Assembly: GCF_002214585.1 (NCBI RefSeq)
Contig: NZ_CP014862.1
Span: 310,001-374,000, forward strand
Source of the DNA: Thermococcus profundus
GTDB taxonomy: Archaea > Methanobacteriota_B > Thermococci > Thermococcales > Thermococcaceae
Direction: 5' to 3'
DNA length: 64,000 nucleotides
Made by a program: the position numbers and the translations under genes. How positions within the stretch are numbered: position 1 is the stretch's first letter; each line of letters starts with the position of its first letter. The notes below the pieces were generated by a model that was given only the letters and a program-made list of their open reading frames with translations, searched no databases and had not been told where the DNA came from. This document shows, in pieces, positions 11,934 to 60,342 of the stretch.

Positions 11934-12677
11934 GTGGAGCTTCTGAGTACGGGCATTCCCATCCTCGATGAGGCGTTGGGTGGGGGCCTTCTTGAGGACA
12001 GTAACCTCCTCATAGTCTACGATACTTACTCAAACGGCTGGGCCCTGGCCTTTGAGATGCTCAGGAACCGCATAGGTGAGGGGGACTTCGGTGTCATCAT
12101 AAACTCAGTGATGCCATTCACTCCCCTCAAGATGGAGCTCGGGCTTATAGAGCTTGACATTGAAGAGGAGGGAAGAAAGAACAACCTTGCGATCGTGGAC
12201 ATCTTCTCCTCGTTCTACGGGATAGATTACCCACTGGACTTTGTGTACGTTGCTAAGAACATGGATACCAGTACTTTCATGCCAAAATACAGCTCCCTCT
12301 ACAGACGTCTTCTCACGGAGCGGATCAAAGACAGACGTCCCATTGGGGTGGATTTCACTGTAGATGGCCTGGCGTTCTTATTTGGGGAGGATAACTTTAT
12401 CAGGATGTTCCAGAACCTAATCGCCCTGAAGGAAAAGGCAAGGATCTCAGAGAAGAGAAAAAGGCCCATAAACATTTTTCTCCTGAACAGGGGCAGGGCC
12501 TCGGAAAGGCTCACGGCTTGGATGTCCGCTTATAGCCAGTACGTCATAGAGTTCTGCTCCTCCCCGAACTCTATGAGCGAGAGGATGGTGATCAGAAAGT
12601 CGCCCCTGCCTGGTTTCAGGCCCAGGGACGGCGGCTACAGCTTCCAAGTTGAGGGTGGAAGGATTTATATAGAGTAG
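11934..12677 (+). CDS. KaiC-like RecA-fold protein with degenerate P-loop (1)
   Basis: A 247-residue relative of archaeal KaiC-like ATPases. The N-terminus keeps the KaiC entry signature (STGIPILDEALGGGL) and a Walker-B-like strand (LAIVDIFSS), but where Walker A should be the sequence is VYDTYSNGWALA, with no GxxGxGKT Lys. It is therefore unlikely to bind ATP in the usual way. Clearly paralogous to the protein at 13970 over its full length, including the INIFLLNRGRAS and MVIRKSPLPGF segments. GTG start with GGTGAG four to five bases upstream. Role unknown; pseudo-ATPase signalling is speculation. Confidence 0.75.
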   Translation: MELLSTGIPILDEALGGGLLEDSNLLIVYDTYSNGWALAFEMLRNRIGEGDFGVIINSVMPFTPLKMELGLIELDIEEEGRKNNLAIVDIFSSFYGIDYPLDFVYVAKNMDTSTFMPKYSSLYRRLLTERIKDRRPIGVDFTVDGLAFLFGEDNFIRMFQNLIALKEKARISEKRKRPINIFLLNRGRASERLTAWMSAYSQYVIEFCSSPNSMSERMVIRKSPLPGFRPRDGGYSFQVEGGRIYIE

Positions 12678-13969: not shown

Positions 13970-14743
13970 ATGGAGGCGTTACTGGAGAAGTTCAGGCCTT
14001 CCGTTGTAGGCACGGGCATAAAAGATCTCGATGAGATGTTAGGTGGAGGACTCATACGCGGGGGGATCATCCTCTTTGTCTATGACGCATCCTCCTTTGG
14101 GTGGACTGTAGGTGTTCAGATCTTCAGGAGGATAATAGAAGATGGAAATGGTTTTGGAATAGTTACGAGCTACTCCTTCCCTCCCAGTCTTCTTGAGAAG
14201 TACGCGCTTAGCATGAACTATGATGTACTTGAGCACGCCAGCCACGGTGAGCTGGTTATAATAGACGTTCTTGGTTCCCTCTACGATGCCAGGGTTGATC
14301 TGCCCTTCGTTTACTACCCAGGGAAGCTTGATCCAGAGACTTTCCTTGCGAAGCTTGAGGCAACCTACCGGAAGATTTTCTCGGAGAGGCTTGGGGGAAG
14401 GACCCCGATTGAGATCTCCGTCACAATGGATGCTCTGCCAAGCCTCTTCGGTGAGGAAGCGGCCATTAAAATCCTCCGCAGGAGCCTGGTTAACAAGGAG
14501 CTCACACTCGTTAAGGAGGAAGGATGGAGACCGACCAATATCTTTCTCATTAACCGCGAGAGGGCCAGCAGGTACTTCCTGGAGTGGCTTTCACAGTACG
14601 CAGAGCACATCATAGAGTTCCGACCCTCAGAAACCCCTGGGGTTGAGAGGATGATCGTTAAAAAGTCCCTGCTCCCGGATTTCGTCCCCAGAACGGCGGA
14701 GTTCAGGTTTAAGAAAGGGGAGATAGAGATCTTCCCGGAGTGA
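13970..14743 (+). CDS. KaiC-like RecA-fold protein with degenerate P-loop (2)
   Basis: A 257-residue paralogue of the protein at 11934. It keeps GTGIKDLDEMLGGGL and the Walker-B-like ELVIIDVLGSL, but the P-loop is replaced by VYDASSFGWTVG, without Lys or Thr for nucleotide binding. The last third (NIFLINRERAS, MIVKKSLLPDF) matches the paralogue closely. GGGTGAGAG lies before ATG 13970. The two copies flank the small gene and the tRNA thiolase on the opposite strand, which suggests an old duplication with genes in between. Function unknown. Confidence 0.75.
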   Translation: MEALLEKFRPSVVGTGIKDLDEMLGGGLIRGGIILFVYDASSFGWTVGVQIFRRIIEDGNGFGIVTSYSFPPSLLEKYALSMNYDVLEHASHGELVIIDVLGSLYDARVDLPFVYYPGKLDPETFLAKLEATYRKIFSERLGGRTPIEISVTMDALPSLFGEEAAIKILRRSLVNKELTLVKEEGWRPTNIFLINRERASRYFLEWLSQYAEHIIEFRPSETPGVERMIVKKSLLPDFVPRTAEFRFKKGEIEIFPE

Positions 14744-15956: not shown

Positions 15957-17075
15957 GTGCTCCCAGTGGAGACCCTCAGGATAGCCTTCGTCTACGACGT
16001 GATCTACCCTTGGGTCAAGGGTGGAGTTGAAAAGAGAATTCACGAGCTCGCCATTAGGCTGGCGAGGAAGCACGAGGTTCATATCTACGGCTACAAACAC
16101 TGGGAAGGCGGTAGCTACCTTGAACGCGGAGGTGTTGTTTACCACGGACTCGTTCGCCCGGGGACCCTCTACCTGGCCGGCAAGAGGAGTCCCTTCCCCA
16201 TGTTGAGCCTGGCCACTGCCCTGAGGAAGAGACTTCCCGAGCTTGGGGAGTACGACGTTGTCGACGTCCAGAACCTCTTCTATCCGGGTGCCTTCGTTCT
16301 GAGAAAACTTCCCAACGCGGTTCTAACGTGGCATGAGTTCTGGGGGAGCTACTGGTTTAGATACTTCGGGCCTCTTGGAGCGGCTGGTTTTGCGACTGAG
16401 AATCTCCTGCGCCCCTATAAGGTACATCTGTCCGTCTCATGGAAGACACAGCTCGATCTCCTTAAAGCGGGCGTTTCCTCTAGGGTTGTCCCAAACGGCG
16501 TGGATATAAAAAGAATCAAGCGGATAAAGCCCGCTGAGCTCAGGAGTGACTTTATTTTCGTTGGACGGCTTATGAGGGACAAGAACCTTGAGCTTGCCTT
16601 GGGTGCCGTTTCGACCCTGAGGGAGGACTTTCCTGACGTAGTCTTCACCGTCGTTGGTGATGGTCCTGAGAGGGATAGACTTGAGGCCATCTCCAGGAGG
16701 CTCGGTCTCTCCGGGAACGTGGTTTTCACTGGCAGGTTGGAGGGCTGGGAGGAGGTGATCTCCCTCCTGAAGGCCTCGAAGGTCTTTGCTTTCCCCTCAC
16801 TTCGAGAGGGCTTTGGAATGGCCGTGCTTGAGGCCATGGCAGTTGGAGTCCCTCCAGTTGTTTTGAATTCGCCAATGAATGGAGCGAAATTTCTGGTTGA
16901 TGAAAAGAGTGGCTTGGTGCTAGGAGAGGATAAATTTGCCAATGGACTGGGGCTTCTTCTCTCGGATGAGGGACTGCGGAAAAAGCTTGGAAGAAACGCG
17001 AGAAGGAAAGCTGAGGGGTTTGATTGGGGAGAAATTGCAGGGAGTTTTGAGGACATATTGTTAATGTCAATTTGA
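15957..17075 (+). CDS. glycosyltransferase family 4 (GT-B fold)
   Basis: Retaining GT-B glycosyltransferase of 372 residues, the first gene of the surface glycan locus. The N-terminal Rossmann half begins IAFVYDVIYPWVKGGVEKR with the GGVE acceptor loop; the C-terminal half has FVGRLMRDKNLE and the GT4 nucleotide-sugar motif PSLREGFGMAVLEAMAVG, with the paired Glu residues. It transfers a hexose or similar residue to a lipid-linked or surface glycan in the cytoplasm; donor unknown. GTG 15957 fits a leaderless start; GTG 15966, with GGTG six bases before it, is the alternative. Confidence 0.88.
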   Translation: MLPVETLRIAFVYDVIYPWVKGGVEKRIHELAIRLARKHEVHIYGYKHWEGGSYLERGGVVYHGLVRPGTLYLAGKRSPFPMLSLATALRKRLPELGEYDVVDVQNLFYPGAFVLRKLPNAVLTWHEFWGSYWFRYFGPLGAAGFATENLLRPYKVHLSVSWKTQLDLLKAGVSSRVVPNGVDIKRIKRIKPAELRSDFIFVGRLMRDKNLELALGAVSTLREDFPDVVFTVVGDGPERDRLEAISRRLGLSGNVVFTGRLEGWEEVISLLKASKVFAFPSLREGFGMAVLEAMAVGVPPVVLNSPMNGAKFLVDEKSGLVLGEDKFANGLGLLLSDEGLRKKLGRNARRKAEGFDWGEIAGSFEDILLMSI

Positions 17076-17169: not shown

Positions 17170-18075
17170 TTAATCTTTCTTAAAATGCAGTATTTTCTTT
17201 ATGTACTCCACTGAACGGGAGTCCAGCGCGAGTTCTATAAGCTTTGCGTAATTCTCTGTGTTAAACGGTGCCATTGCAATGGAGCGGGCAATATATCTTA
17301 GCCCCTTTTCTGCGTTTCCCCCGAAAATGAGAAGGAATCCCATCTGACTTAGATGGATGCTCATTATTTTTGGATTCCTTCTGATGTCGAGATGTTTGTT
17401 GATGAACCTCTCCCTCCCAGGTATGTATTTGTTCATATTGAAAGATATCTGCCTTCCATGAACGTAGTACTTTGCAACTATCTCATTCACGTAGTCGAAC
17501 TTGTAGTGCTTCGCTATCCTGAGCCACATGTCCCAGTCCTGAGAGCTTGTGAGCTTCGGATCAAAGAGCCCCGCCCTTTTGAAGCACTCGCGCCTTATGA
17601 GAAGGGTTGGGCTCCCCACAAAGTTCTCCCTCAGAAATCGTCGGTATACATCCCCACGGAACTGTGGGAGCCTCTTCCCGAGGATCCGCCCATCCTGCTG
17701 CGACACGTAGTAGAAGCCGCCGTAGACTACTCCGAATTCCTCCTCGAGGGCTTCGAACTTTTTCACTTGAACCTCAAGCCTCATTGGGAGCCACTCATCG
17801 TCATCGTCAAGAAACGCTATGAACTCTCCCCGGCTTTTTTTTATCCCTGTGTTCCTCGCAACGGGAGCGCCGGAGTTTTTCTTCAGGCGGAGGTACCTGA
17901 CCCGGCCGTCGTCTATACTTTCGACCACTTCAGGTGTGTTGTCTGTTGAGGCATCGTCTACAACGAGCAGTTCAAAATCTTCGAACGTCTGGTAGAGAAC
18001 GCTATCTATGGCTCTCCTTAGAAGGTCGGCCCTGTTGTGCGTTGGGATTATCACTGAAACAGCTGGGCGGCTCAT
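17170..18075 (-). CDS. glycosyltransferase family 2 (GT-A fold)
   Basis: GT-A glycosyltransferase of 301 residues. It begins VSVIIPTHNRADLL, has the first acidic motif VVDDASTDNT, the metal-binding DDDD at AFLDDDDEWLP near residue 92, and SSQDWDMWLRI near residue 190, typical of the ExD/ED acceptor side. No membrane helices, so it is a cytosolic or peripheral enzyme for surface glycan assembly. AAGGAGGTATGAC precedes ATG 18075 and overlaps the galU stop; it is co-transcribed with ugd and galU. Confidence 0.9.
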   Translation of the reverse strand: MSRPAVSVIIPTHNRADLLRRAIDSVLYQTFEDFELLVVDDASTDNTPEVVESIDDGRVRYLRLKKNSGAPVARNTGIKKSRGEFIAFLDDDDEWLPMRLEVQVKKFEALEEEFGVVYGGFYYVSQQDGRILGKRLPQFRGDVYRRFLRENFVGSPTLLIRRECFKRAGLFDPKLTSSQDWDMWLRIAKHYKFDYVNEIVAKYYVHGRQISFNMNKYIPGRERFINKHLDIRRNPKIMSIHLSQMGFLLIFGGNAEKGLRYIARSIAMAPFNTENYAKLIELALDSRSVEYIKKILHFKKD

Positions 18076-18076
18076 G

Positions 18077-18946
18077 TCATACCTCCTTGGCGAGCTCTTT
18101 AATCACAGTACCTATCTGTCCTTTGAGTTCTGGCCGTAGGAGGCCAAGTTCAATGTTGGCCTTTATAAACCCAAGCTTAGTGCCGACATCGTACCGTTTC
18201 CCCGAGATTCTCTTTGCTAGGATTTTTCTTTCGTTGGCCAGTATCCTGAGAGCGTCCGTTAGCTGAAGTTCTCCTCCCTTCCCGGGAGGTGTTTTTTTCA
18301 GTATATCAAAAATCTCGGGGGGTAAAACGTATCTCCCTATTATAGCTATGTTGCTTGGAGCTTCTTCCGGAGAGGGTTTTTCGATAAGGTCATTCACATC
18401 ATAGAGACCGTCTTCTATTTGGCTTCCGCTGACTACACCGTACCTGCTGACGAGCTCCCATGGAACCTCCTCAACGCCGATAACCGGGGAAGAGTACCGG
18501 CTGGCAACTTCAATTAGCTGTTGTATTCCAGGTTTTTCGCTCACTATTATATCATCTCCAAGCAGTACTGCAAAGGGTTCCCTATTAACGTGTTTTTCAG
18601 CATGAAGAATGGCATCACCAAGGCCGAGCGGTTTTTTCTGCCTAACGTAATAAATGTCGACCATTTCCCCGATTTCCTCAACCTGCTTAAGCTCTTCGAG
18701 CTTTCCCTTCTCCCTGAGATAATACTCGAGCTCAAAGCTCCTGTCGAAGTAGTCCTCAATAGCTCGCTTCCCCTTTCCAGTAATTATCAAAATGTCATCA
18801 ATGCCTGCCCTTATTGCCTCCTCGACGACATAATGGATAACAGGTTTGTCCACGATAGGGAGCATTTCCTTGGGCATTGATTTGGTTATTGGGAGCATTC
18901 TCGTGCCCAAACCAGCCGCTGGGATCACAGCCTTTCTTATTCTCAC
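18077..18946 (-). CDS. galU: UTP--glucose-1-phosphate uridylyltransferase
   Basis: Makes UDP-glucose from UTP and glucose 1-phosphate. The nucleotidyltransferase signature VIPAAGLGTRMLPITKSMPKEML is at the N-terminus; VLLGDDII is the metal-binding Asp motif and EKPSPEEAPSNIAIIGRYVL the sugar-binding loop. The 289-residue length fits bacterial-type GalU. GTG 18946 overlaps the ugd stop as GTGA and has GAGGGGG upstream; GTG 18952 is possible. Next to ugd it supplies the substrate for UDP-glucuronate. Confidence 0.93.
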   Translation of the reverse strand: MRIRKAVIPAAGLGTRMLPITKSMPKEMLPIVDKPVIHYVVEEAIRAGIDDILIITGKGKRAIEDYFDRSFELEYYLREKGKLEELKQVEEIGEMVDIYYVRQKKPLGLGDAILHAEKHVNREPFAVLLGDDIIVSEKPGIQQLIEVASRYSSPVIGVEEVPWELVSRYGVVSGSQIEDGLYDVNDLIEKPSPEEAPSNIAIIGRYVLPPEIFDILKKTPPGKGGELQLTDALRILANERKILAKRISGKRYDVGTKLGFIKANIELGLLRPELKGQIGTVIKELAKEV

Positions 18947-20226
18947 CAGCACACCCCCTCGTAAACCCTTGCAGTCTTTTCGGCGGCCTTTATCCTTCTA
19001 CCATCAATTACAATTTTCCCAGAATAATCCAGCTTCTCGAACTCTCTCCATTCCGTAACTATCAGGATTACATCAGCCCTCTTTAAAACGTCCTCAGCCG
19101 AATTAGCGTACTCTATCCTCTCGCCAACATCTGGATAGAAGCGCTTGAAGTTCTCCATGGCTTGTGGATCATAAGCTACGACACGAGCTTCCTCTTCCAG
19201 GAGATTCTTTACGACGACATAAGCCCTAGTCTCCCTAACATCATCAGTATCCGGCTTGAATGCCAGGCCGAGAACTCCAATGATCTTCCCTTTGAGTTCT
19301 GGAACATGCTTCTTAAGGAGTTCGATCAGTTTGAGGGGCTGCCTCTCGTTGACTTCCACGGCGGCTTTAATGATTATCGGGTCTTCTCCTAATTCTTCGG
19401 CTTTTCTGATGAGTGCCTTAGTGTCCTTGGGGAAGCAGGAACCGCCCCATCCAATTCCCGTTTTGAAAAAGTGCGGGCTTATCCTGTGGTCGAGTCCAAC
19501 GCCCTCGAACACTCTCCACGAGTCGATTCCAAGTTTCTTGCAAATGTTCCCGATCTCGTTTGCAAAGCTTATTTTTGTCGCGAGGAAAGCGTTAGAGGCG
19601 TACTTTATCATCTCAGCAGTTTTAATGTCGGTAAACAGCTTTGGCGCGTTAATGGGGGCGTAAAGCTCTTCGAGAACTTTCTTAGTTCTCCCGTCTTGAA
19701 CACCAATGACTATTCTGTCAGGGTTCAGGAAGTCCTTTAATGCCACTCCCTCGCGGAGGAATTCCGGGTTCATTGCCAGACCAAAGTCTTCGAAAGCTTT
19801 CTTTCCAGAGTATTCTTCAAGAATTGGTTTTACGACTTCTTCAGTTGTCCCAGGTAGGACTGTGCTCTTAACCACAACGATATGATAGGTGCCCTTCTCT
19901 TTAAGAGCCCCTCCGATTTCTTCTGATGCTTTTTTAACGTAAGTTAAGTCCATCGAGCCGTCTTCTCTTGACGGTGTTCCCACTGCAATGAAAGTAACCT
20001 CAGAATTTAGAATCGCTTCTTTGTAATCTCTGGTAGCATAATACCTGCCCTTGTATTCTCTCATTAGTTCTTCAAGCCCTTCCTCGTAAATTGGAGGTTG
20101 AGCATTGTTGATCATCTGGATTTTCCTATCGTCTACATCAACGAAGATGACTTCGTTTCCGAGTTTAACAAATCCAATTCCAGTGACAAGACCCACATAA
20201 CCGGACCCAATTATTGAGATCCTCAT
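18943..20226 (-). CDS. ugd: UDP-glucose 6-dehydrogenase
   Basis: NAD-dependent oxidation of UDP-glucose to UDP-glucuronate. The Rossmann motif is at the N-terminus (ISIIGSGYVGLVTG), the catalytic Cys lies in GWGGSCFPKDT near residue 256, and the C-terminal UDP-binding domain has GLAFKPDTDDVRE. At 427 residues it is of normal length. GGGGGAGTTAAA precedes ATG 20226. It is the first gene of a ugd-galU-glycosyltransferase operon, so glucuronic acid is probably a component of the surface glycan. Confidence 0.93.
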   Translation of the reverse strand: MRISIIGSGYVGLVTGIGFVKLGNEVIFVDVDDRKIQMINNAQPPIYEEGLEELMREYKGRYYATRDYKEAILNSEVTFIAVGTPSREDGSMDLTYVKKASEEIGGALKEKGTYHIVVVKSTVLPGTTEEVVKPILEEYSGKKAFEDFGLAMNPEFLREGVALKDFLNPDRIVIGVQDGRTKKVLEELYAPINAPKLFTDIKTAEMIKYASNAFLATKISFANEIGNICKKLGIDSWRVFEGVGLDHRISPHFFKTGIGWGGSCFPKDTKALIRKAEELGEDPIIIKAAVEVNERQPLKLIELLKKHVPELKGKIIGVLGLAFKPDTDDVRETRAYVVVKNLLEEEARVVAYDPQAMENFKRFYPDVGERIEYANSAEDVLKRADVILIVTEWREFEKLDYSGKIVIDGRRIKAAEKTARVYEGVCW

Positions 20227-20268: not shown

Positions 20269-20295
20269 TCATGCATGTATCCGTGAGGGGTGGGC

Positions 20296-21234
20296 ATGAG
20301 AAGTCTAAAAACCTCAAGCTACATCCTTGTGACGCCTGCGAAGAATGAGGAGGACAACTTACCTCTCCTGGCTAGAAGCGTGATCAATCAAACGATTAGA
20401 CCGAGACTGTGGGTTATTGTCAATGATAATAGCACTGACGGAACGGATAGGATTATATCCTCCCTTGAGTCAGAGTATCCTTGGATAGTGGGATACAAAA
20501 TAGCGGACGGTTTCCTTGAATATGACGCGACTATGAGATATTCTGAAGTTGTGAAAAAAGGTTTTGATATAGCTAGACATCTTGCCTATAATAAAAGTAT
20601 TCCTTATGGCTACATCGGCTTGGTAGATGCGGACTTTATTCTCGAAAGGAGATTTTTTGAGAAGATTATAAATGAGTTTCATAAAGATCCCAGTCTTGGC
20701 ATCGCTAGCGGGGGAGTTTATCTGAAGACACCCAACGGGAAAAAAATCTTCTGGGAAAGGACTAATCCTAAGCATCCTAGGGGAAGTCCTAGACTGTTCA
20801 GGAGGGAGTGCTTTGATGATATTGGGGGCTATCGGCGATTTTATACCCCAGACGTTGTCTCAAATTACCTTGCAAGACTTAATGGGTGGGAAGTGAAACA
20901 GGTTATAAACGCCATAGCTGTTCAGCTAAGGCCCACCCAAAGTAGGGGCGGTGTCTTTAGGGCGTATATTCGGCAGGGTAGAGCAAATTATCACCTTGGG
21001 GTTAGCCCTATGTCTCTACTGGCTAGGGTGATCTTTATGCTTCTTTTTGATAACAGATTAAAAGCCGGGGGTTTGCTAGTTGGATACTTTTCGTCTCTAC
21101 TTCGACGTGAGGATTATTTAATACAAGGAAAATTAAGGGAGTTTGCGAAAAAGGATATGGGCGTATCAAATAATGTTAAGAAAGTCTTATCAATGGTGAG
21201 TACTGGTTTATCGAGGGATTCGCTGAACAGGTGA
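20296..21234 (+). CDS. glycosyltransferase family 2
   Basis: GT-A glycosyltransferase, 312 residues. It has VTPAKNEEDNLPLLARSV at the N-terminus, IVNDNSTDGT as the first acidic motif, and GLVDADFILERRFF as the metal-binding DxD near residue 105. The C-terminal part is basic with a short hydrophobic patch. ATG 20296 follows GAGGGGTG; a GTG at 20290 lies within that site. From here to about 25080 the base composition shifts clearly towards A+T and codon choice with it, suggesting acquisition from elsewhere. First of four rightward genes. Confidence 0.87.
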   Translation: MRSLKTSSYILVTPAKNEEDNLPLLARSVINQTIRPRLWVIVNDNSTDGTDRIISSLESEYPWIVGYKIADGFLEYDATMRYSEVVKKGFDIARHLAYNKSIPYGYIGLVDADFILERRFFEKIINEFHKDPSLGIASGGVYLKTPNGKKIFWERTNPKHPRGSPRLFRRECFDDIGGYRRFYTPDVVSNYLARLNGWEVKQVINAIAVQLRPTQSRGGVFRAYIRQGRANYHLGVSPMSLLARVIFMLLFDNRLKAGGLLVGYFSSLLRREDYLIQGKLREFAKKDMGVSNNVKKVLSMVSTGLSRDSLNR

Positions 21235-21240
21235 AGGATT

Positions 21241-21912
21241 ATGAAACCTAGGATATCCGTAGTTGTGTGTACGAAAAATAGCGAAAGCACACTTGATTTA
21301 ACACTCAGCTCGATTTCACGACTCAACCCCTTTGAAATAATAATAATCGATGGAGGCTCAAAAGACAAAACACTTGAAATCGCAAAAAAGTACACGAGAC
21401 GTATCTATTCTGACAACGGTAAGGGGTTAGCGTATGCAAGACAAATGGGGGCAGTGTTAGCTAGGGGAGATTATGTACTATACCTTGATTCAGACGTAGA
21501 AGTAAATGATCCGTTATTCTTTGAGAGATTATTGGGAGAGATGGAGAGAAGGAACTGGATAGCAGTCCATCCTCAAGTGAAAAGTTTGTCCAAAAACGGC
21601 CTGTGGGAAGATGGTGTGGATTTTTATTTTTCGATGAAATTCAATATTCCAGGAGAACACAGATATCTTCCGCTGATGGCTTGTATGATAAAAAGGGATG
21701 TGCTTTTGGAAATAAGCTTTGATGTCCGATTCAAGGGGGCGGGAGAGGACCATGACTTTTGGGCTAGAGCGTTTCAAAATGGATACCGCTTTGGTGTTGC
21801 CAGATGTTGTTGGGTATTTCATCACCATCGTAGTTCTTTTAAGGAATTTGTCAAACAGAGGATTTGGTATGGGCGGGGCAATGTGTTGCTTTTCTCAAAA
21901 TACAGAGATTAG
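21241..21912 (+). CDS. glycosyltransferase family 2, cut short by an in-frame TAG
   Basis: The 223 codons encode a GT-A catalytic domain: ISVVVCTKNSESTLDLTL, IIIDGGSKDKT, and LYLDSDVEVND as the metal-binding DxD near residue 82, then an AGEDHDFWARA acceptor-site motif near residue 163 and a GRGNVLLFSKYRD tail. TAG at 21910-21912 stops it, yet the same frame stays open for 61 more codons with a basic, hydrophobic C-terminal region of the kind often found in such enzymes. The gene is therefore probably truncated by a nonsense mutation, though the catalytic domain itself looks intact and may still work. GGTGAAGG precedes ATG 21241, seven bases after the previous stop. Confidence 0.8.
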   Translation: MKPRISVVVCTKNSESTLDLTLSSISRLNPFEIIIIDGGSKDKTLEIAKKYTRRIYSDNGKGLAYARQMGAVLARGDYVLYLDSDVEVNDPLFFERLLGEMERRNWIAVHPQVKSLSKNGLWEDGVDFYFSMKFNIPGEHRYLPLMACMIKRDVLLEISFDVRFKGAGEDHDFWARAFQNGYRFGVARCCWVFHHHRSSFKEFVKQRIWYGRGNVLLFSKYRD

Positions 21913-22098: not shown

Positions 22099-22110
22099 AG
22101 GGTGGACCTA

Positions 22111-23526
22111 ATGAGTTATGGTAAAACTGTTGCTATAATACTGGCAGGCGGAACTGGTTCTCGTGTGGGATGGGACGTACCCAAGCAGTTTGTTAAGATA
22201 GCTGGCAAAAAGGTAATCGAACACACCTTAGATGTGTTTCAAAATCATCCTTTAGTGGATGAGATTTACGTTGTTATAAATCCTAATTATTACGAGTATT
22301 TTAACGAGGTAATTTTGTCGAAATATCCCAAAATCAGGAAAGTTTTAAATGGTGGGAATACTAGGCAGGAATCCTCGAGGATTGGAGTATTTGCCACGGA
22401 GGATGACGTTGAGAATATACTTATCCACGATGCCGTTAGGCCATTAATTACATCGGACATAATCACAAGAGTAATCAAGGCTCTTGAAAACTCTTGTGCT
22501 GTGGATGTTGTTATTCCTGCTGTCGATACAGTTGTGGTATCGGATGGGCATAAAATTCTAAGGATACCTCCGCGAGGATACCTTTATTATGGGCAAACCC
22601 CTCAGGGATTCAAAAGAAAAGTTATACTAAAGGCCCATAAGCTTGCGGAGGAGGAAGGCTTTGACAACGCCACTGATGACTGTTCCTTGGTACTCAGGTA
22701 TGATCTTTGTGATGTTACTATAGTCCAAGGATCAAAGACCAATATTAAATTTACTTATGATGTTGATTACTACCTCCTGGATATTCTATTCCAATTACGC
22801 AATGAGTTTATCTTGGATGAAAATATAACTAGGGACCACATTGAATCGCTTTTGAGCGCACTTAGGGATAAAGTCATAGTAGTCTTTGGAGGGACAAGTG
22901 GCATTGGAGAGAAAATTGTAGATATCTCAAGAGGATATGGGGCTAAAGTGTATCCCTTCTCTAGGAGATTGGGAGTAGATGTCAGTAATCCTCAGGATGT
23001 AGAAAGGGCCATTAAGGAAGTCTACGAAAGGGAGGGAAGAATAGATTATATTATAAACACTGCTGGTATTCTTTATATGGGGCCCATTCAATCGAGAGAG
23101 CTTAAGGATATTCAGAATGAAATAAACGTTAATTATCTCGGATCTATTTATGTCACCAAATTTGGACTGAAGTATCTTGCTCCTAACGGCGCAATAGTGC
23201 TTTTTGGTTCTAGTTCATACACAAGAGGTCGTAGGAACTATTCAGTTTACTCTTCGACTAAAGCGGCTCTAGTTAACTTTGTTCAGGCAGTCTCTGATGA
23301 AATATCGGATAAAGGCCAGAGGATATTTATCGTTGTTCCTGAAAGAACAAAAACCCCATTACGGATCAGGAATTTTGGTTATGAACCGGACGAGACGTTG
23401 TTAATGCCGGAATCTGTTGCTTATGTGACGTTGCTGGCATTGACTTCTGGGATTACTGGAGTTCCAGTTCCCGTGAGAAAAAGTGTTGAAGAAAAAACAC
23501 TTAGAAAACTTGGTTTAATTGACTAG
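22111..23526 (+). CDS. bifunctional CDP-ribitol synthase: cytidylyltransferase + SDR reductase (Acs1/Bcs1-like)
   Basis: A 471-residue fusion. Residues 1-235 form an IspD/TarI-type cytidylyltransferase: IILAGGTGSRVG, KQF, LIHDAVRPL, IPAVDTV and GQTPQGFK. Residues 250-471 form a short-chain dehydrogenase: VVFGGTSGIGEKIV for NAD(P), INTAG, GSSSYTRGR and the catalytic YSVYSSTKAA, then VVPERTKTP. Order, length and motifs match Haemophilus Acs1/Bcs1, which reduces ribulose 5-phosphate to ribitol 5-phosphate and activates it as CDP-ribitol. ATG 22111 follows GGTGG. Together with the next gene this implies a ribitol- or similar polyol-phosphate polymer. The polyol made here has not been tested. Confidence 0.85.
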   Translation: MSYGKTVAIILAGGTGSRVGWDVPKQFVKIAGKKVIEHTLDVFQNHPLVDEIYVVINPNYYEYFNEVILSKYPKIRKVLNGGNTRQESSRIGVFATEDDVENILIHDAVRPLITSDIITRVIKALENSCAVDVVIPAVDTVVVSDGHKILRIPPRGYLYYGQTPQGFKRKVILKAHKLAEEEGFDNATDDCSLVLRYDLCDVTIVQGSKTNIKFTYDVDYYLLDILFQLRNEFILDENITRDHIESLLSALRDKVIVVFGGTSGIGEKIVDISRGYGAKVYPFSRRLGVDVSNPQDVERAIKEVYEREGRIDYIINTAGILYMGPIQSRELKDIQNEINVNYLGSIYVTKFGLKYLAPNGAIVLFGSSSYTRGRRNYSVYSSTKAALVNFVQAVSDEISDKGQRIFIVVPERTKTPLRIRNFGYEPDETLLMPESVAYVTLLALTSGITGVPVPVRKSVEEKTLRKLGLID

Positions 23527-23537
23527 GGGGGGAGATA

Positions 23538-24740
23538 TTGTTCATCTCCCATCATATCAAACGAGAACTGGTTAATATTCCTAATAGATTCCTCCCAAAA
23601 AGGAGTGATGCAGTTTCTGTGATTACTCCTCGGATTGGTGATAATGCATTTTATGTGTTTGATTACCTATCGACTAGCACCGATTATGATGTCAAATTTT
23701 TATTTGTCCAATGGCCAATGCCTTCTAAATTGATGACCACTGTTCTTGAAAATATGAAAACAAAATACGGTGAAGATAAGGTCTTGTTTCTAAGATCTAG
23801 CAGGGGCTTAAAACACTACTACTCCTCGAGCTGGGTATTTAGTGATGGATATGTCGCTGTAACAAAACCTCTTGGAAATCAAAAAGTTGTTCAACTGTGG
23901 CATGGATATATTGGAAAAAGAATAGGCTATCTCAACCCCTCTACACCGGATGAAACTTCACTATTTCGGTGGACTACTTCTGTCTTTACAACTCAATCCT
24001 CGTTTCTTGCTCTTCAATTTATTGCAGAATTTGGATTGTCCCCTAATTCATTTGTCCTAACGTCCTCCCCTAGGTTTGATTTGATACTCCCTAAACAATC
24101 CAAAGATAGGGCGTTTAATGCACTTTCTTCAATGGGAATAGATACTTCATACAAGCATCTCGTACTTGCTGCACCAACTTTCCGTAGGGATAGAATGAAT
24201 AATGTAGACCCTCACTCAAGTTTCAATATAATTTCTCATTATCTCTCTGAGGACGTGGAAAAGTTTCTGGTTGAAAATGATATTCTTCTGGTCCTTAAAC
24301 CTCACCAGACCCTTACAAAATATCCTGAATATCTAAATAAGCTTTCTAAAGAAAGAGAAAATATAGTGTTTATTGATAATTCTATGTTATACTCCAATCT
24401 TCTGGGTATTACTAATATACTACCTGCATTTGATGCTTTAATAACAGATTATTCAAGCGTCTTTGTGGATTACTTACTTCTAAATAGACCTGTTATCTTT
24501 TATGTTCCGGATTATGAGGATGCAATAAAATCTTTGGGATACACTGTAAACTTTGATACGTATACTCCAGGCCCAAAGGTAAAAACAGTGAATGAACTTA
24601 TATCCGCAATTGAGGCTGTATTATTTAGTGAAAAGGATCCATATCTCGAAAAACGAAAATGCATCAGGGATGTCTTAATAGAAAAATGGTACCCAGAGGA
24701 TAATACTAAAATTTTGCTTAAAGATATTGGGTTTCTTTAG
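23538..24740 (+). CDS. CDP-glycerol/ribitol glycerophosphotransferase family protein (TagF/TarL-like)
   Basis: About 400 residues of the teichoic-acid polymerase family, which transfer glycerol- or ribitol-phosphate from CDP-polyol to a growing chain at the membrane face. Family motifs in order: KVVQLWHGYIGK near residue 118, LAAPTFRRD near residue 213, LVLKPHQTL near residue 252, and the CDP-binding ALITDYSSVFVDYLLLNRPVIFY near residue 297. It starts with TTG at 23538 after GGGGGGAG. It directly follows the CDP-ribitol synthase gene, so CDP-ribitol is the probable donor. It could act as polymerase or as a single-unit primase; sequence alone does not tell. Confidence 0.85.
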   Translation: MFISHHIKRELVNIPNRFLPKRSDAVSVITPRIGDNAFYVFDYLSTSTDYDVKFLFVQWPMPSKLMTTVLENMKTKYGEDKVLFLRSSRGLKHYYSSSWVFSDGYVAVTKPLGNQKVVQLWHGYIGKRIGYLNPSTPDETSLFRWTTSVFTTQSSFLALQFIAEFGLSPNSFVLTSSPRFDLILPKQSKDRAFNALSSMGIDTSYKHLVLAAPTFRRDRMNNVDPHSSFNIISHYLSEDVEKFLVENDILLVLKPHQTLTKYPEYLNKLSKERENIVFIDNSMLYSNLLGITNILPAFDALITDYSSVFVDYLLLNRPVIFYVPDYEDAIKSLGYTVNFDTYTPGPKVKTVNELISAIEAVLFSEKDPYLEKRKCIRDVLIEKWYPEDNTKILLKDIGFL

Positions 24741-25079: not shown

Positions 25080-26312
25080 TCAATGTTGATAAATAAGATA
25101 CACCGTATTTAAAACACTTGCCACTCCTTGACTTACCACCGTCGCCACTGCCGCCCCGCTCGCCCCATAATTTAGTATCATAAAGTAATTCAGCATAACG
25201 TTTAGCAAAGCTGTGAACCCTGTTATTTTGGTAAAAGTTAGTTCCCTTCCGGTTGCATTCAAAAAGCTTCCAAATAACGAGTTCATGAACATGAATGGAA
25301 TGGCAAAGGCTAGGATCCTGAGTACCGAGGCACTGTATAGGAAGCCCTCTCCAAACACGATAATGACTCCCCACTCTGCGAGTATGTAATAACCTGCTGT
25401 TCCAGCGATGCCTAGGGCTCCCAAAATCTGAAAGCTTTTCTTTAGCAGGATTCTGAGTGTTTTTCTATCCCTCTCCCAGAGTCTTGCCATAGACGGCATA
25501 GTTGTTGAGACGACGATATTTGGAACGAACAGGGAAACTTCGATCAGCGTGTAGGCTGCCCTGTAGATCCCAGTCTCATAGTCTCCACGCATTAGGCTCA
25601 GCATCACCATATCGGTACGGTAGTAGATGAGGGTGAAGAGACCAATGAGCCAAAAGGGATAGGATTTTCTGAGAAGGGAGAGCCATGCCTCCGGTTTGAA
25701 ACGTATCTTGACTTCATTCGCAAACCGTGAACCCCACTTCATCCTCAGGAGTTCTCTAATTGAGTAGCCCACAAGGAGGGTTATTATGAATGGTCTGAGG
25801 GATTTAGAGAGGTAGAGAACAGCCCCCCCAACGAAAAACGCCCAGAATCTCTCGATGGTTTTTGCAATAGCCTCGTACTTCGTGACTTCATTGGCGTACA
25901 TAAGTCTCACAAACACGTATGAAACCCAAGTGAGCATAGCCTCGGCTCCGGCCAGTATTATGAGAACCTTCATCCAGGCCGGCTTTGGGAGGGGTAGCGT
26001 TAGGATCAGGATTATTCCAAAATTAACTAGCGCCAACACGATCTTGAGTCCTAAGACATCTGGAAGAAGCTCTTCGGCTCTGCCCCTGTTTCTTGCAACC
26101 TCGCGCATAAAGTAGTAACCAACTCCGAGATCCGAAAAAATCCCCAGTAGCCCCACGTAGTAGAAAATGAACGAGTACTGGCCGAGTCCCTCCGGGCCTA
26201 GGGTTCTGCTTAGAATGACGATGATGCCGTAGGCCAATAACTTTGAAATGATCTCGGCACCAAAAAGCCAGCCTGCGTTTTTTATCAGCTTCAATTTTAA
26301 ACTTTCGGTCAT
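25080..26312 (-). CDS. oligosaccharide flippase (Wzx/MATE-like polysaccharide transporter)
   Basis: Integral membrane protein of 410 residues with about twelve hydrophobic helices and the family start KNAGWLFGAEIISKLLAYGIIVILSR. Members flip undecaprenyl- or dolichyl-linked oligosaccharides across the membrane. LSRTLGPEGLGQYSF near residue 35 is typical of the polysaccharide-synthesis flippases. No ribosome binding site; a TATA element at 26336-26346 about 28 bases upstream indicates a leaderless start at ATG 26312. It is the only exporter candidate in the locus. Confidence 0.88.
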   Translation of the reverse strand: MTESLKLKLIKNAGWLFGAEIISKLLAYGIIVILSRTLGPEGLGQYSFIFYYVGLLGIFSDLGVGYYFMREVARNRGRAEELLPDVLGLKIVLALVNFGIILILTLPLPKPAWMKVLIILAGAEAMLTWVSYVFVRLMYANEVTKYEAIAKTIERFWAFFVGGAVLYLSKSLRPFIITLLVGYSIRELLRMKWGSRFANEVKIRFKPEAWLSLLRKSYPFWLIGLFTLIYYRTDMVMLSLMRGDYETGIYRAAYTLIEVSLFVPNIVVSTTMPSMARLWERDRKTLRILLKKSFQILGALGIAGTAGYYILAEWGVIIVFGEGFLYSASVLRILAFAIPFMFMNSLFGSFLNATGRELTFTKITGFTALLNVMLNYFMILNYGASGAAVATVVSQGVASVLNTVYLIYQH

Positions 26313-26335: not shown

Positions 26336-26346
26336 AATTAAAAACT
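26336..26346 (-). promoter_or_regulatory. TATA box of the leaderless flippase gene
   Basis: AGTTTTTAATT on the minus strand, centred about 28 bases before ATG 26312, in the 33-base gap after the nucleotidyltransferase gene. Confidence 0.45.
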
Positions 26347-27341
26347 TAATCCCCCCTCTGTATCTTCGCGTGTCCTCCGACCAGGCTCTTCTTCAGCTCG
26401 AGGTTCCTTATCTCGCACTTCTCATCGATTATAGAACGCCATATTGTTGCATTCTTAAGCACGGTGCCCTTGAAGACTATCGAGTCGCTTATATCTGAGT
26501 TCTCTATGACGCAGTCCTCTCCTATGTACGCGTATGGTCCTATTATTGATCGTCCCAGTATTTTCGTACCCCTCTTTATGACCACCGGCGGGATTATCTT
26601 TGAGTAGGGGCTTATCTGGATCTCCTCGATATGGCTCTCCTTTAGGAGCGTCTTGAGGGCCTCGAGGTAGCTGTCAGCGCTCCCGATATCGTACCAGAAC
26701 TCAGAGAAGCGGTAGGCCCGTATCTCAATTCCCCTCCTCAGAAGCCAGCTGAGGAAGTACCCTGGCGCGTCTCTGTGGCCGTTTGCGAGGTATTCATCAA
26801 TGAGCGCCATAACCTCCTTCGGAAGGGCGTAGACACCGGTGCTTATCAGCGTGGACTTCGGCACGGCCGGCTTCTCTTCGAAGTCCACAACCTTGTCTCC
26901 CTCCAGGAGGACAACACCGTATCTCTTGGCGAGCTCTGGATCGCCAACATCGTAGACCGCTATCAGAGGCTTCCCATTATATCTCTGAAGGAAGTCTTGG
27001 AGCGAGAACGAGAACAGGTTGTCGCCGGCGATAATCAGGTAGTCATCCAAACCGACCTCCTCGATTATCTTCTTCAGCGCTCCTATTGTTCCTAGCTTCT
27101 CCTCCTCGTGCAGGGTGTCCTCTACTATGAGTTTGACGCCCCATTTCTCAGCAAACGGCCTGAATCTGCTCTCGAAGAACCTGTTGGTCGAGATGTAGGT
27201 CTCAAGGTCGGTTTCCATAACCTTCTCCATTATGTGATCCAGTATTGTTTTGTCCCCCACCGGCAGGAGGGCCTTGGGGACGTCCTTCGTGATCGGCCAG
27301 AGCCTCGTTGCATATCCCCCGGCCATTATGACAGCCTTCAT
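26346..27341 (-). CDS. sugar-1-phosphate nucleotidyltransferase with left-handed beta-helix
   Basis: A 331-residue enzyme that activates a sugar 1-phosphate. The N-terminal transferase domain has AVIMAGGYATRLWPITKDVPKALLPV, LIIAGDNLF as the metal-binding Asp motif, and DFEEKPAVPKS. From about residue 245 hexapeptide repeats (IIGPYAYIGEDCVIENSDISDS) form a left-handed beta-helix. The Y in GGYATR rather than GGLGTR suggests the archaeal glucose/mannose-1-phosphate group; base and sugar are undecided (dTTP, UTP or GTP). ATG 27341 follows AGGTGATAAC; the GTG at 27350 lies in that site. Confidence 0.88.
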   Translation of the reverse strand: MKAVIMAGGYATRLWPITKDVPKALLPVGDKTILDHIMEKVMETDLETYISTNRFFESRFRPFAEKWGVKLIVEDTLHEEEKLGTIGALKKIIEEVGLDDYLIIAGDNLFSFSLQDFLQRYNGKPLIAVYDVGDPELAKRYGVVLLEGDKVVDFEEKPAVPKSTLISTGVYALPKEVMALIDEYLANGHRDAPGYFLSWLLRRGIEIRAYRFSEFWYDIGSADSYLEALKTLLKESHIEEIQISPYSKIIPPVVIKRGTKILGRSIIGPYAYIGEDCVIENSDISDSIVFKGTVLKNATIWRSIIDEKCEIRNLELKKSLVGGHAKIQRGD

Positions 27342-27371
27342 TGTTATCACCTAACGCCAGCATCATGTCTT

Positions 27372-27453: not shown

Positions 27454-28407
27454 ATGAAAGTCCTAGTTACGGGCGGCGCCGGTTTCATCGGCTCCCACCT
27501 GGTTGACAGGCTTATGGAGAGCGGCTACGAGGTTATGGTCTTGGACAACCTGAGTGCTGGGAGCATCGACAACATAAGGCACTGGATTGGTGACGAGCGC
27601 TTTGAGTTCATAAATGGGGACATGATCGACGGGGAAACTGTGAAACGGGCCCTTGAGGGAGTCGATGCGGTCTTTCACCTTGCGGCCAATCCGGAGGTTA
27701 GAATAAGTGCCCAGAGCCCTGAGAAGCTCTACGAGAGCAACGTGACGATAACCTACAACCTCTTGGAGGCTATGAGAGATTCCGACGTTGAATACCTCAT
27801 CTTCACGAGCTCCTCAACTGTTTACGGCGATGCTGAGATCATCCCCACCCCCGAGAACTATGGGCCTCTCAAACCGATAAGCGTCTACGGAGGGGCCAAG
27901 TTAGCGGCCGAGGCGATAATAAGCGGCTATGCTCACATATTTGGCTTTAAGGCCCTGAGCTTCCGCCTGGCGAACATCATCGGGAAGCGCTCGAACCACG
28001 GAGTTATATACGACTTCATCAATAAACTGCGGAAGAACCCGAACGAGCTGGAAATCCTCGGCGACGGCACCCAGAGGAAGAGCTACCTCCACGTGAGCGA
28101 CACGGTTGAGGGAATGCTTCACATCTTTGATCACTTCAGGAAAAGCGGCGAGACCTACGACGTCTACAACCTCGGCAGCGACGACTGGATAACGGTAAAG
28201 GAGATAGCCGAGATAGTGAGCGAGGAGATGGGATTGAGTCCTAAGTTCCGCTTCACCGGAGGAGTTGATGGCGGAAGGGGATGGAAGGGCGACGTTAAGC
28301 TCATGCTCCTCGATATAAGCAGGGCGAAATCGACGGGCTGGAAGCCAAGGCTCAACAGCTACGAGGCCGTCAGAAAGACCGTTAGGGAACTGCTGGGAAA
28401 GGAGTGA
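27454..28407 (+). CDS. NAD-dependent nucleotide-sugar epimerase (GalE-like)
   Basis: Extended short-chain dehydrogenase of 317 residues. VTGGAGFIGSHLVD binds NAD, FTSSSTVYG contains the catalytic Ser/Thr, and YGGAK (YxxxK) is near residue 148. The whole pattern fits UDP-glucose 4-epimerase or a related UDP-sugar epimerase or decarboxylase; UDP-glucose made by GalU could be its substrate. GAGGTGAGATAGAA precedes ATG 27454. It returns to the GC-rich composition of the chromosome and marks the right edge of the glycan locus. Confidence 0.88.
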   Translation: MKVLVTGGAGFIGSHLVDRLMESGYEVMVLDNLSAGSIDNIRHWIGDERFEFINGDMIDGETVKRALEGVDAVFHLAANPEVRISAQSPEKLYESNVTITYNLLEAMRDSDVEYLIFTSSSTVYGDAEIIPTPENYGPLKPISVYGGAKLAAEAIISGYAHIFGFKALSFRLANIIGKRSNHGVIYDFINKLRKNPNELEILGDGTQRKSYLHVSDTVEGMLHIFDHFRKSGETYDVYNLGSDDWITVKEIAEIVSEEMGLSPKFRFTGGVDGGRGWKGDVKLMLLDISRAKSTGWKPRLNSYEAVRKTVRELLGKE

Positions 28408-29179: not shown

Positions 29180-29199
29180 CCCCTCTCCAATTTTCCCCT

Positions 29200-29256
29200 G
29201 CGATGATGAGTGATGGGCGAACCGACCGGTGAGGAAGGAAAGGTGATCGCTGAGCA
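29200..29256 (+). ncRNA. box C/D guide RNA (1 of 2, tandem)
   Basis: Box C ATGATGA at 29203-29209, D' CCGA at 29222-29225, C' GTGAGGA at 29229-29235 and box D CTGA at 29250-29253 have the spacing of archaeal 2'-O-methylation guides (about 55 nt). The D' guide GTGATGGGCGAA is complementary over nine bases, plus a wobble and one more pair, to UUCGCCCAU, which I recall as conserved in the archaeal 23S A-loop helix (E. coli about 2554-2562). The target of the D guide is not clear. A TATA box lies about 25 bases upstream and no ORF competes. Confidence 0.7.
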
Positions 29257-29268: not shown

Positions 29269-29287
29269 CCCATCTCCTACCTTTTCT

Positions 29288-29343
29288 GGGATGATGAGTT
29301 CAGCCTTGTCCGAGCTGTGACGAGGGAGTGACGGACTGACCGT
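29288..29343 (+). ncRNA. box C/D guide RNA (2 of 2, tandem)
   Basis: Box C ATGATGA at 29291-29297, D' CCGA at 29310-29313, C' GTGACGA at 29317-29323 and box D CTGA at 29336-29339. The D' guide GTTCAGCCTTGT pairs with CAAGGCUGAA of 16S rRNA (fifth base corresponds to E. coli G902). The D guide GGGAGTGACGGA pairs with CCGUCACUCC of the 16S decoding region (fifth base corresponds to U1406). Targets are from recalled conserved rRNA sequence. Both guides hitting 16S rRNA strongly supports a real guide RNA. It ends about 25 bases before the CDF transporter start. Confidence 0.75.
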
Positions 29344-48526: not shown

Positions 48527-50452
48527 TCAGCGCCTCCTCCTGAGGAGCGGCGACAATGCGAAAAGGCCTATAACCCCAGGTCCGCAGATCGAGGTTATTC
48601 CTGAGTTACTAGTTGTCGTGTTCCCTTGCTCGCCCGGGGTACTCGTGGTAGTTGGTTCCACAGTGCTTGTGCTGTTTGTCGGGCTGAGCGGGTTCGTCCA
48701 GGTTACCCCTGGGCTTGAGTTCACCTTCATCAGGAAAACGCCGGCGCTCTCCCTGGCGTACTGGTAGAATATCATGGCGTTCTCGATTCCTTCGGTGGTG
48801 TTCTCCTTCTCGTAGCTCTCGGCGAACTCGTAGTATGCTATGGCCAGGAGGGGCGTTATCCCCTTGGTCTGGGCCAAGCCTATGGCCGTCTTCGCTGCGG
48901 ACTTCATGCTTTCAAGCTTGTCCTTCAGAACCGTGGTGTTGTCTATGGCGAGGGTGTCAAGGAAGACCTCCCCCCTGACCCTTGCCTCCATGGCAGTGAA
49001 GATCGCCGCCGAGTACTTTCCGTCGTCGTAGTACTCCTCCGCCTTCTGAATAGCGTCGCTCAGGGAGTTTCCGACCACGTTTCCGTACATTGACTCAATG
49101 TACGTCGCTATGAGGCTCGACTCGTCTATGTAGTTCCTGGCCGTGTCCCTGAGCTCCTCCCTCTCGATGACGTCGCCCTTTGCAAAGCGCTCACCCAGAT
49201 TGGCCCAGAAGCGCGCGGTGTCTGCCCTCTCATATGCGTAGGCCGCGTTGCCAACGGCGTCCCAGTAGTCGGCGTTGTAGAAGTCTTTCCACGCGTCCTG
49301 GAGTAGGCTTTTGGCCTCCTCGATCCTCTCCTCGGCCGCGGCTACTGCCTGGAGCATGGTTACACCCCTGATCTGCTTGCTTGAAACGAGTTCTTCCGTT
49401 TCGTTTATGTACGAGTTCACCCTGGTGAGGAGGTTGCTGACGTCCTGGACGCTCTGAACGCTCATGTACCAGTCCACGTGCCTTATGACGATCCTTGCCT
49501 GGAAGTCCTTGCTCAGCGTGGTGTAGTACATTCCCCCGTCGAGGCTCTTCTTAGCCTGGTCCAGGATCGACTTGGCCTGATCGAGGGCCTCCTTCAGTGA
49601 GGTGTAGGTGGAGTAGTCGACGTTGCTTTCCTTGAGCTTGTTCAGGACTTCGCTGTAGTAGTCGGTTGTGTTCTGGTAGTCTTCCCTGGCGTCCCCCTCG
49701 AGGAAAGAGGTATCTATCTTTATCACGTCCGGGACTTTGGGCTTCTGGAGCCTGTGCCCGGTGAAGTAGTAGACCGCGTCGTAGATGTCCCTCACCTCCT
49801 TGACCTCGAGGCCCCACCTGTCTTTGGCGTACTGGGCAACGTCGACCTTCTCTGTCTTGGTGGTTATCTGGACGATGCCCCCTATGCTCTTCCGCTGGCT
49901 CTCCTGAACCACCTGAATCCTCTGGCCCTCGGGGATGAGGAAGAGCTTTGCACCGACGGAGGCGGCGGCGCTGGCCTTCTCAAGGATTCCGCCGACTGGC
50001 CCTATGGTGCCGTCCGGGTTTATCATGCCCGTCATCATAACGTCGCTCTTTACGTTCCAGCCCTCCAGGGCCGCGATTATTCCAACCGTCATTGTTCCTC
50101 CAGCCGAGGGACCGCCTATGATGGGTGAATCAGCCCTGACCTGGATGAACACGTCGTATTTGCTCATGTCCTTGCCCGTCACTTCTCCCGCTATCTGAGT
50201 GGCCAACCTTGCGCTGGCCTGCATGTCAACCTCCGCCAGCGGCCATGTCTCCAGGTAGACGTGCCCGCTACCTGGGGCGACGGTGACGACGAAGTCTGTT
50301 GCCACTCCAACGAACCTTCCGTCGGGCGTCCTTGACACTGCCGGGGCCTTTAAGACGACGGTGTGCCCTTCGCTGGGGCACTGGGCGCCCACTGCTGGAA
50401 TGAGGGATAGGATGAAGATTAAAACTGCGGCGATGCTGTATAATTTTTTCAT
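48527..50452 (-). CDS. secreted Lon-type (S16) protease with CGP-CTERM tail
   Basis: Exported protein of 641 residues. A signal peptide (residues 1-23, ending VGA) precedes a Lon proteolytic domain with the dyad Ser116 in IIGGPSAGGTMTVG and Lys159 in GPVGGILEKASAAA. No ATPase domain is present. Residues about 270-570 are helical with many Tyr/Ala repeats (LLQDAWKDFYNADYWDAVGNAAYAYERAD), then a Thr/Ser-rich linker and the CGP-CTERM end ICGPGVIGLFALSPLLRRRR, which anchors Thermococcales proteins outside the cell. GGTGGTGGGA precedes ATG 50452. The substrate is unknown; it probably handles surface proteins. Confidence 0.88.
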   Translation of the reverse strand: MKKLYSIAAVLIFILSLIPAVGAQCPSEGHTVVLKAPAVSRTPDGRFVGVATDFVVTVAPGSGHVYLETWPLAEVDMQASARLATQIAGEVTGKDMSKYDVFIQVRADSPIIGGPSAGGTMTVGIIAALEGWNVKSDVMMTGMINPDGTIGPVGGILEKASAAASVGAKLFLIPEGQRIQVVQESQRKSIGGIVQITTKTEKVDVAQYAKDRWGLEVKEVRDIYDAVYYFTGHRLQKPKVPDVIKIDTSFLEGDAREDYQNTTDYYSEVLNKLKESNVDYSTYTSLKEALDQAKSILDQAKKSLDGGMYYTTLSKDFQARIVIRHVDWYMSVQSVQDVSNLLTRVNSYINETEELVSSKQIRGVTMLQAVAAAEERIEEAKSLLQDAWKDFYNADYWDAVGNAAYAYERADTARFWANLGERFAKGDVIEREELRDTARNYIDESSLIATYIESMYGNVVGNSLSDAIQKAEEYYDDGKYSAAIFTAMEARVRGEVFLDTLAIDNTTVLKDKLESMKSAAKTAIGLAQTKGITPLLAIAYYEFAESYEKENTTEGIENAMIFYQYARESAGVFLMKVNSSPGVTWTNPLSPTNSTSTVEPTTTSTPGEQGNTTTSNSGITSICGPGVIGLFALSPLLRRRR

Positions 50453-50538
50453 TCCCACCACCGGAGAATGTGGAGGGAGTGTTGTTAAATGGGTTTCGGT
50501 TTGCTGAACGCTTTCTGAACCATCGGTTCTGACCAAAA

Positions 50539-60143: not shown

Positions 60144-60342
60144 TTTCTCCTTTTTATCGAATTTTATTTTGCGAAATGCTTATTACCCAGAAGTGCGTAA
60201 CTTGTACAAAAGGAACCTGTCCCGCTTTTCTATTTCGCGGGTGGTTTCTTGGGAAGGCGATGGATGTGAAGAATGTGAACTACTTTGGGCCTTTCGGGCC
60301 CCTTTTGAGTGTTCCGTTCTGGTTCATTGAGAGGTGTGGAAA
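60144..60342. other. leader/promoter region of the secreted-protein operon
   Basis: 199 bases without a gene. GGGCC and GGCCC arms (60287-60301, five-base loop) form a small hairpin followed by CTTTT about 40 bases before the next start; it could be a terminator of the BtpA gene or an RNA element in the leader. GAGGTG at 60331-60336 is the ribosome binding site for 60343. Confidence 0.4.

Follow-up and report, generated by a model that had tools for sequence, protein, structure and literature searches.

Gene organization of the locus

The window, a 64,000-nucleotide stretch of the Thermococcus profundus genome, contains a glycan island that is low in GC, variable, and O-antigen-like, and that encodes a Wzx-type flippase. 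Two forward-strand genes of this island encode a predicted CDP-ribitol synthase, i.e., a bifunctional cytidylyltransferase–SDR fusion (22111–23526), and a PF04464 polyol-phosphate transferase of the TagF/TarL/CroT type (23538–24740). Such a fusion, followed after 11 bases by a TagF/TarL-like transferase, had been described in an earlier note; the open reading frames and Pfam searches bear out its coordinates and domain calls, and the intervening gap spans 23527–23537.

The fusion can be read from a GTG at 22102 (22102–23526, 474 aa) or an ATG at 22111 (471 aa), of which the ATG fits better given a Shine-Dalgarno-like GGGTGG (22100–22105, forward strand) shortly upstream. Its first domain (22123–22803) matches the IspD/TarI cytidylyltransferase family (5.6e-48, residues 10–225) and contains the motifs LAGGxGxR, PKQ, HDAVRP, IPxR…GQTPQ, TDDC, and NIKFT. 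The second domain (22855–23526), a predicted D-ribulose-5-phosphate reductase, matches adh_short (4.6e-26, residues 291–421) and keeps both the GGxxGIG motif, here GGTSGIG, and the catalytic N-S-Y-K tetrad. Domain order and length, previously likened to Haemophilus Acs1/Bcs1, agree with those of 73 fusions from bacteria, which are 440–480 aa long, with E. coli fusions serving as stand-ins for Haemophilus. An AlphaFold model of the fusion (pLDDT 89) matched human ISPD best, with alignment over both domains, followed by IspD and TarI.

The transferase open reading frame encodes 400 aa from a TTG start that follows GGGGGGAG, and matches PF04464 over residues 30–379 (1.1e-40). The codons of H122-G-Y-I125-G-K127 (23901–23918, forward strand) correspond to the H96…G99…K101 loop of CroT. 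In an alignment of 34 relatives, the catalytic residues H122 and H256 (equivalent to CroT H96 and H233) and K127 are invariant. The best PDB matches of its structural model (pLDDT 88.7) were Bcs3-CroT, TagF, TarL with CDP-ribitol, and Cps3D, which the structure search set clearly apart from other GT-B folds. For the structure work, alignments were used from which plasmid and E. coli rows had been left out.

Two GT2 glycosyltransferases (20290–21234 and 21241–21912) neighbor the pair on the same strand. Beyond them, the locus contains a forward-strand GT4 glycosyltransferase (15957–17075) and, on the reverse strand, a further GT2 (17170–18075), a GalU UTP–glucose-1-P uridylyltransferase (18077–18952), and an AglM/TuaD-like UDP-glucose 6-dehydrogenase (18943–20226). 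Elsewhere in the Thermococcales, TagF–cytidylyltransferase pairs are followed by a GT2 that shares 45–47% identity with this reverse-strand GT2. On the other side of the pair lies the flippase (25080–26312, reverse strand), which shows 75–82% conservation across glycan loci of other Thermococcales, and then two conserved locus flanks: a sugar-1-P nucleotidyltransferase (26346–27350, reverse strand) and an NAD-dependent sugar epimerase/dehydratase (27454–28407, forward strand). GC content declines gradually from the conserved flanks toward the fusion (0.40) and the transferase (0.357), compared to 0.526 for the window. We read the low GC content as acquisition into a variable locus, though a drop in GC is by itself no proof.

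Several other features were observed in and around the island. The GT2–GalU–UDP-glucose dehydrogenase block (17170–20226) is 76–83% identical to a block in genome G083 (L055:2–2566), where a divergent 523-aa PF04464/epimerase-2-like protein adjoins it. A Camelysin/TasA-like secreted protein (PF12389; 28527–29162), 52–67% conserved in two sister genomes, lies beside the glycan locus, with two close C/D-box guide RNAs downstream (Rfam sR1 and sR60; 29199–29255 and 29287–29341). These RNA families, together with "Pyrococcus" DUF257 genes, point to the Thermococcales. Near the edge of the locus are two related KaiC/RecA-like ATPase-type proteins (11934–12677 and 13970–14743); only the second has a Pfam match, a weak one, and relatives of it adjoin sister loci. 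Elsewhere in the window are a secreted protein with a C-terminal Lon (S16) protease domain and a hydrophobic, arginine-ended tail resembling a surface-sorting signal (48527–50536), and two adjoining large proteins that look secreted and match no Pfam family (60334–63584).

Predicted product of the fusion

The fusion resembles the Bcs1/Acs1 proteins of Haemophilus influenzae and the RefSeq "bifunctional cytidylyltransferase/SDR family oxidoreductase" proteins of E. coli and Parabacteroides in domain order, length, the catalytic residues of both halves, the TarI signature, and a PF04464 or LicD neighbor. It differs from these bacterial synthases in its archaeal host and in its sequence (43–52% identity). 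Bcs1 converts ribulose-5-P to CDP-ribitol, which is used by CroT, a TagF-like domain (PMC10299916). Human ISPD/CRPPA likewise supplies CDP-ribitol for ribitol-phosphate transfer onto a glycan, CDP-ribitol being the substrate of FKTN/FKRP (PMC4873967). ISPD is 17% identical to the fusion. FKTN and FKRP are LicD-like, whereas the transferase of the window belongs to PF04464. Characterized ribitol-phosphate transferases thus occur in both families.

At the sites that separate related cytidylyltransferases, the fusion contains IPxR, GQTPQ, and TDDC. Canonical TarI shares these residues and so, with minor changes, does every sampled bacterial fusion; IspD proteins instead have AQTPQ and TD[DE][AS] at the aligned positions, neither of which is found in the fusion. 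The nucleotide-binding residues are also kept. The TarI signature is imperfect across TarI-like proteins, in that three Gram-positive plasmid copies vary. Among 84 bacterial and plasmid loci, neighboring genes, mostly the next gene, encoded PF04464 in 26, LicD in 39, and either in 62, proportions that are rough since the loci include two TagF-chosen reference loci without a fusion and some end at contig edges. The fusion occurs with LicD in E. coli O118/O151 and in Parabacteroides, and with an ABC exporter and PF04464 in an E. coli K-capsule locus; the O118/O151 O-antigen contains ribitol phosphate. The 2.04-Mb genome also carries RpiA and a fusion of HPS-PHI length, so ribulose-5-P should be made. 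IspF (PF02542) is absent from the whole genome, while the same search was positive in 9 of 14 control genomes. Together, the TarI-type signature, the bacterial relatives beside TagF or LicD, the lack of IspF, and the genes for ribulose-5-P supply make CDP-ribitol synthesis likely, and we consider it very probable that the fusion yields CDP-ribitol or a very close CDP-pentitol. The earlier proposal of a ribulose-5-phosphate reductase and CDP-ribitol synthase followed by a polyol-phosphate transferase is thus well supported, at the level of homology, signature residues, bacterial neighborhoods, and substrate supply.

Two other identities for the fusion were weighed. It might be an isoprenoid-type IspD, with the pair having no role in glycan synthesis, and the sole curated NCBIfam model that it passes is indeed TIGR00453 ispD (188 vs. 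181 bits); the absence of IspF, the fused SDR, the TarI signature, and the position in a glycan locus all argue against this identity, which we rejected as exceedingly improbable. Alternatively, the fusion could start from xylulose-5-P or a similar ketose phosphate and yield another CDP-pentitol, such as CDP-D-arabinitol or CDP-xylitol; the transferase would then transfer the corresponding polyol phosphate. Specificity for D-arabinitol or xylitol may be compatible with the sequence, as similarity at the family level leaves stereochemistry unfixed, and the isoleucine in the transferase pocket (see below) is unlike the ribitol-type glycine. The full IPxR–GQTPQ–TDxC signature, common to canonical TarI and all sampled bacterial fusions, and the HPS-PHI and RpiA genes in the same genome point instead to ribitol, and we regard another pentitol as unlikely.

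Donor and acceptor of the PF04464 transferase

The transferase shares with CroT of Bcs3, TarL, and TagF its fold, the two catalytic histidines, the lysine at position 127, and a TDYSS motif. In contrast to these enzymes, to which it is 17–18% identical, it stands alone as a 400-aa protein outside any multi-enzyme polymerase. The CroT pocket position three residues after the first histidine is reported to hold glycine in ribitol-phosphate transferases and proline in glycerol-phosphate transferases (PMC10299916). The window transferase has Ile125 (HGYI) where CroT has glycine and TagF proline; the ribitol-type glycine is therefore absent. In line with the rule, HGVG is found in most TagFs that neighbor bacterial fusions; the E. 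coli K-capsule fusion partner (HGDS) is an exception. The transferase beside the only other archaeal fusion found, in genome G078, has HGLP, and other Thermococcales have HGLP or HAVP. Ile125 is neither the ribitol-type glycine nor the glycerol-type proline, which makes the donor less certain. Based on adjacency, we nevertheless think it probable that the transferase uses the product of the fusion.

The same pocket lends something to the reading that the transferase moves glycerol phosphate from CDP-glycerol made elsewhere, with the fusion serving another enzyme or being a passenger: related Thermococcales TagFs have the glycerol-type proline, and archaea make glycerol-1-P. This seems quite improbable, however, given that the genome encodes no other PF04464 protein, that this gene lies 11 bases from the fusion, and that the fusion adjoins TagF in both archaeal genomes that carry it. 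A different question is whether a processive TagF builds poly(ribitol phosphate) chains on the cell, i.e., a true teichoic-acid-like polymer. In its favor, the TagF/TarL family includes polymerases, and the transferase resembles TarL and TagF in fold. Against this, the transferase has a single domain of 400 aa, no TagA/WecG homolog (PF03808) was found in the whole genome, and no ABC exporter, including TagGH, was present at 8–40 kb of the window among the open reading frames and families examined around the locus. Moreover, the Wzx flippase and GT2/GT4 layout is like that of bacterial repeat-unit loci in which the fusion supplies a decoration. A polymer of this kind is accordingly doubtful. 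To our knowledge, archaea lack murein peptidoglycan.

Without TagA in the genome or an exporter near the locus, a classical teichoic acid pathway is unsupported. The earlier note had called the module teichoic-acid-like while remarking that its only exporter is of the Wzx type. The latter remark holds and the enzyme-level reading is well supported, but the teichoic part is weaker, in view of the missing TagA/WecG and nearby TagGH, the resemblance of the island to Wzx/O-antigen or N-glycan loci, and the lack of a pocket glycine. No Wzy-like polymerase was recognized in the locus, and AglB-type proteins are encoded elsewhere in the genome. These absences (TagA/WecG, Wzy, and an ABC exporter), together with the flippase-type locus and the AglB-type proteins, favor ribitol-phosphate decoration of a lipid-linked glycan over poly(ribitol phosphate); between a flipped glycan that is decorated and a long polymer, we incline somewhat to the former.

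Distribution and origin of the fusion

We surveyed other genomes for the fusion. Among 94 Thermococcales genomes, a full fusion was found in only one other, G078, which belongs to a different genus (73% identity over 467 aa); a phylum sample of 115 genomes contained no further full fusions. A pattern search of GTDB genome contigs yielded 80 fusion loci that were kept, all bacterial by title, full-length, and 41–52% identical to the window copy. Their hosts include Bacteroidales, Thermotogaceae, Gastranaerophilales, Actinomycetota, and others. The nearest bacterial fusion by identity is a Thermotogaceae copy (51–52%), and full fusions occur in 4 of 103 genomes of its phylum (46–51% identity). 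With such identities to a second genus and to Thermotogaceae, and with invariant catalytic residues, the fusion is far beyond chance; this conservation rules out a chance open reading frame or artefact.

In the fusion trees, the two archaeal copies pair (100/100) and nest within the bacterial fusions. Their group is mixed and includes Thermotogota; the E. coli O118/O151 and K-capsule copies fall in the other group. The full-length tree puts the archaeal pair within a mixed group of eight rows and gives no finer donor placement. One row of the fusion tree is a Proteus plasmid-labelled record (L059) that lacks annotation at the fusion and was also used as a DNA query. The fusion seems to have come from bacteria and to have been combined with a transferase system that is archaeal.

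A wider PF04464 system in Thermococcales

PF04464 is encoded in 18 of the 94 Thermococcales genomes. An IspD/TarI-family cytidylyltransferase is present in 15 of these 18, and no genome has the cytidylyltransferase without PF04464 (hypergeometric p about 9e-15, relatedness ignored). In 13 of the 15 (L041–L051, L053, and L056), the cytidylyltransferase is a protein of about 229 aa without an SDR half, the full fusion being that of the other two. Wherever the contig allows, this short enzyme adjoins TagF or sits one gene away, and in most genomes a GT2 follows the pair. The 13 modules share the TagF lineage of the window (up to 36% identity) and, as in the window, have a donor enzyme next to TagF; several also share flippase/nucleotidyltransferase/epimerase or site-2-protease flanks. 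Unlike in the window, their donor enzyme lacks GQTPQ and TDxC as well as the SDR half, and their TagF has the pocket proline. The short cytidylyltransferases have EAPT or KSPV for QTPQ and PHD or ESD for TDD; with the ribitol signature lost, they probably act on the phosphate of an alcohol other than ribitol. Among archaea, TagF with the 229-aa cytidylyltransferase is probably more common than the fusion.

All analyzed Thermococcales TagFs form one set in the TagF tree (95/95). The window copy joins a group that partners the short cytidylyltransferase (99/98, long branch) and the G078 copy joins a different group, and thus each fusion lies beside a different native TagF lineage. Since the transferase lineage usually pairs with a different cytidylyltransferase, the fusion appears to have been swapped in as donor enzyme. 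The simplest reading, which we offer tentatively given the long branches, is that a bacterial CDP-ribitol synthase may twice have become the donor enzyme of native transferases.

Two further loci were recorded. In G085 (L054:7940–9243), a TagF fragment at a contig end has a 266-aa NTP_transferase beside it in place of an IspD/TarI-type enzyme, which may represent a third type of donor partner. On a Halorussus aquaticus plasmid (L060:7020–9056), a PF04464 gene comes after one for an NTP transferase, indicating that pairs of a similar kind exist in haloarchaea.

Proposed pathway and implications

In the pathway that we propose, the SDR half would reduce D-ribulose 5-phosphate to D-ribitol 5-phosphate, which the cytidylyltransferase half would convert with CTP to CDP-ribitol. 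The PF04464 enzyme would then transfer ribitol-5-phosphate, or a few such units, from CDP-ribitol to an outer sugar of a lipid-linked oligosaccharide assembled by the GT2 and GT4 enzymes of the locus. The Wzx-type flippase would flip the product, which may end up on surface proteins (via AglB) or in a surface glycolipid. A fusion of bacterial derivation would have been joined to a transferase of a Thermococcales lineage.

We hold this explanation as a whole, i.e., CDP-ribitol synthesis, PF04464 transfer to a lipid-linked glycan, flipping, and bacterial acquisition of the fusion, with moderate confidence, tempered mainly by the missing pocket glycine. It is grounded in the gene structure, family membership, catalytic residues, model folds, co-location, precursor genes, and low GC content. 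What we infer is that the polyol is ribitol and that TagF uses it, along with the acceptor, the transfer of single units, and the final carrier.

In the literature searched, no ribitol-phosphate glycan was found in archaea and no teichoic-like glycan in Thermococcales. So far as we know, ribitol phosphate on sugar chains has been limited to bacterial walls and capsules and human muscle glycans. A related archaeal precedent is mru_1079 of Methanobrevibacter ruminantium, annotated as a CDP-glycerol:poly(glycerophosphate) glycerophosphotransferase (PMC5816558). CDP-ribitol is reported to be commercially unavailable and to have broken down when isolated (PMC10299916), and the pair, if our reading is true, would provide two thermostable enzymes for its production.

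The proposed pathway would also bring ribitol phosphate into archaeal surface-glycan chemistry, and virus attachment and cell charge might be affected. More generally, the presence of PF04464 in a subset of Thermococcales, mostly beside a cytidylyltransferase, argues concretely, and in a way that can be tested, for polyol-phosphate glycans among the Thermococcales. It is conceivable, though we put it forward only tentatively, that these glycans form a hitherto unrecognized family in which transferases of an archaeal PF04464 lineage are supplied by donor enzymes that can be exchanged. In most cases the donor enzyme would be the divergent 229-aa cytidylyltransferase, acting on a different alcohol phosphate (in archaea, sn-glycerol-1-phosphate would be the obvious candidate), whereas in the window a bacterial CDP-ribitol synthase would have taken its place. 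If so, archaeal surfaces would carry variable teichoic-like phosphate groups.
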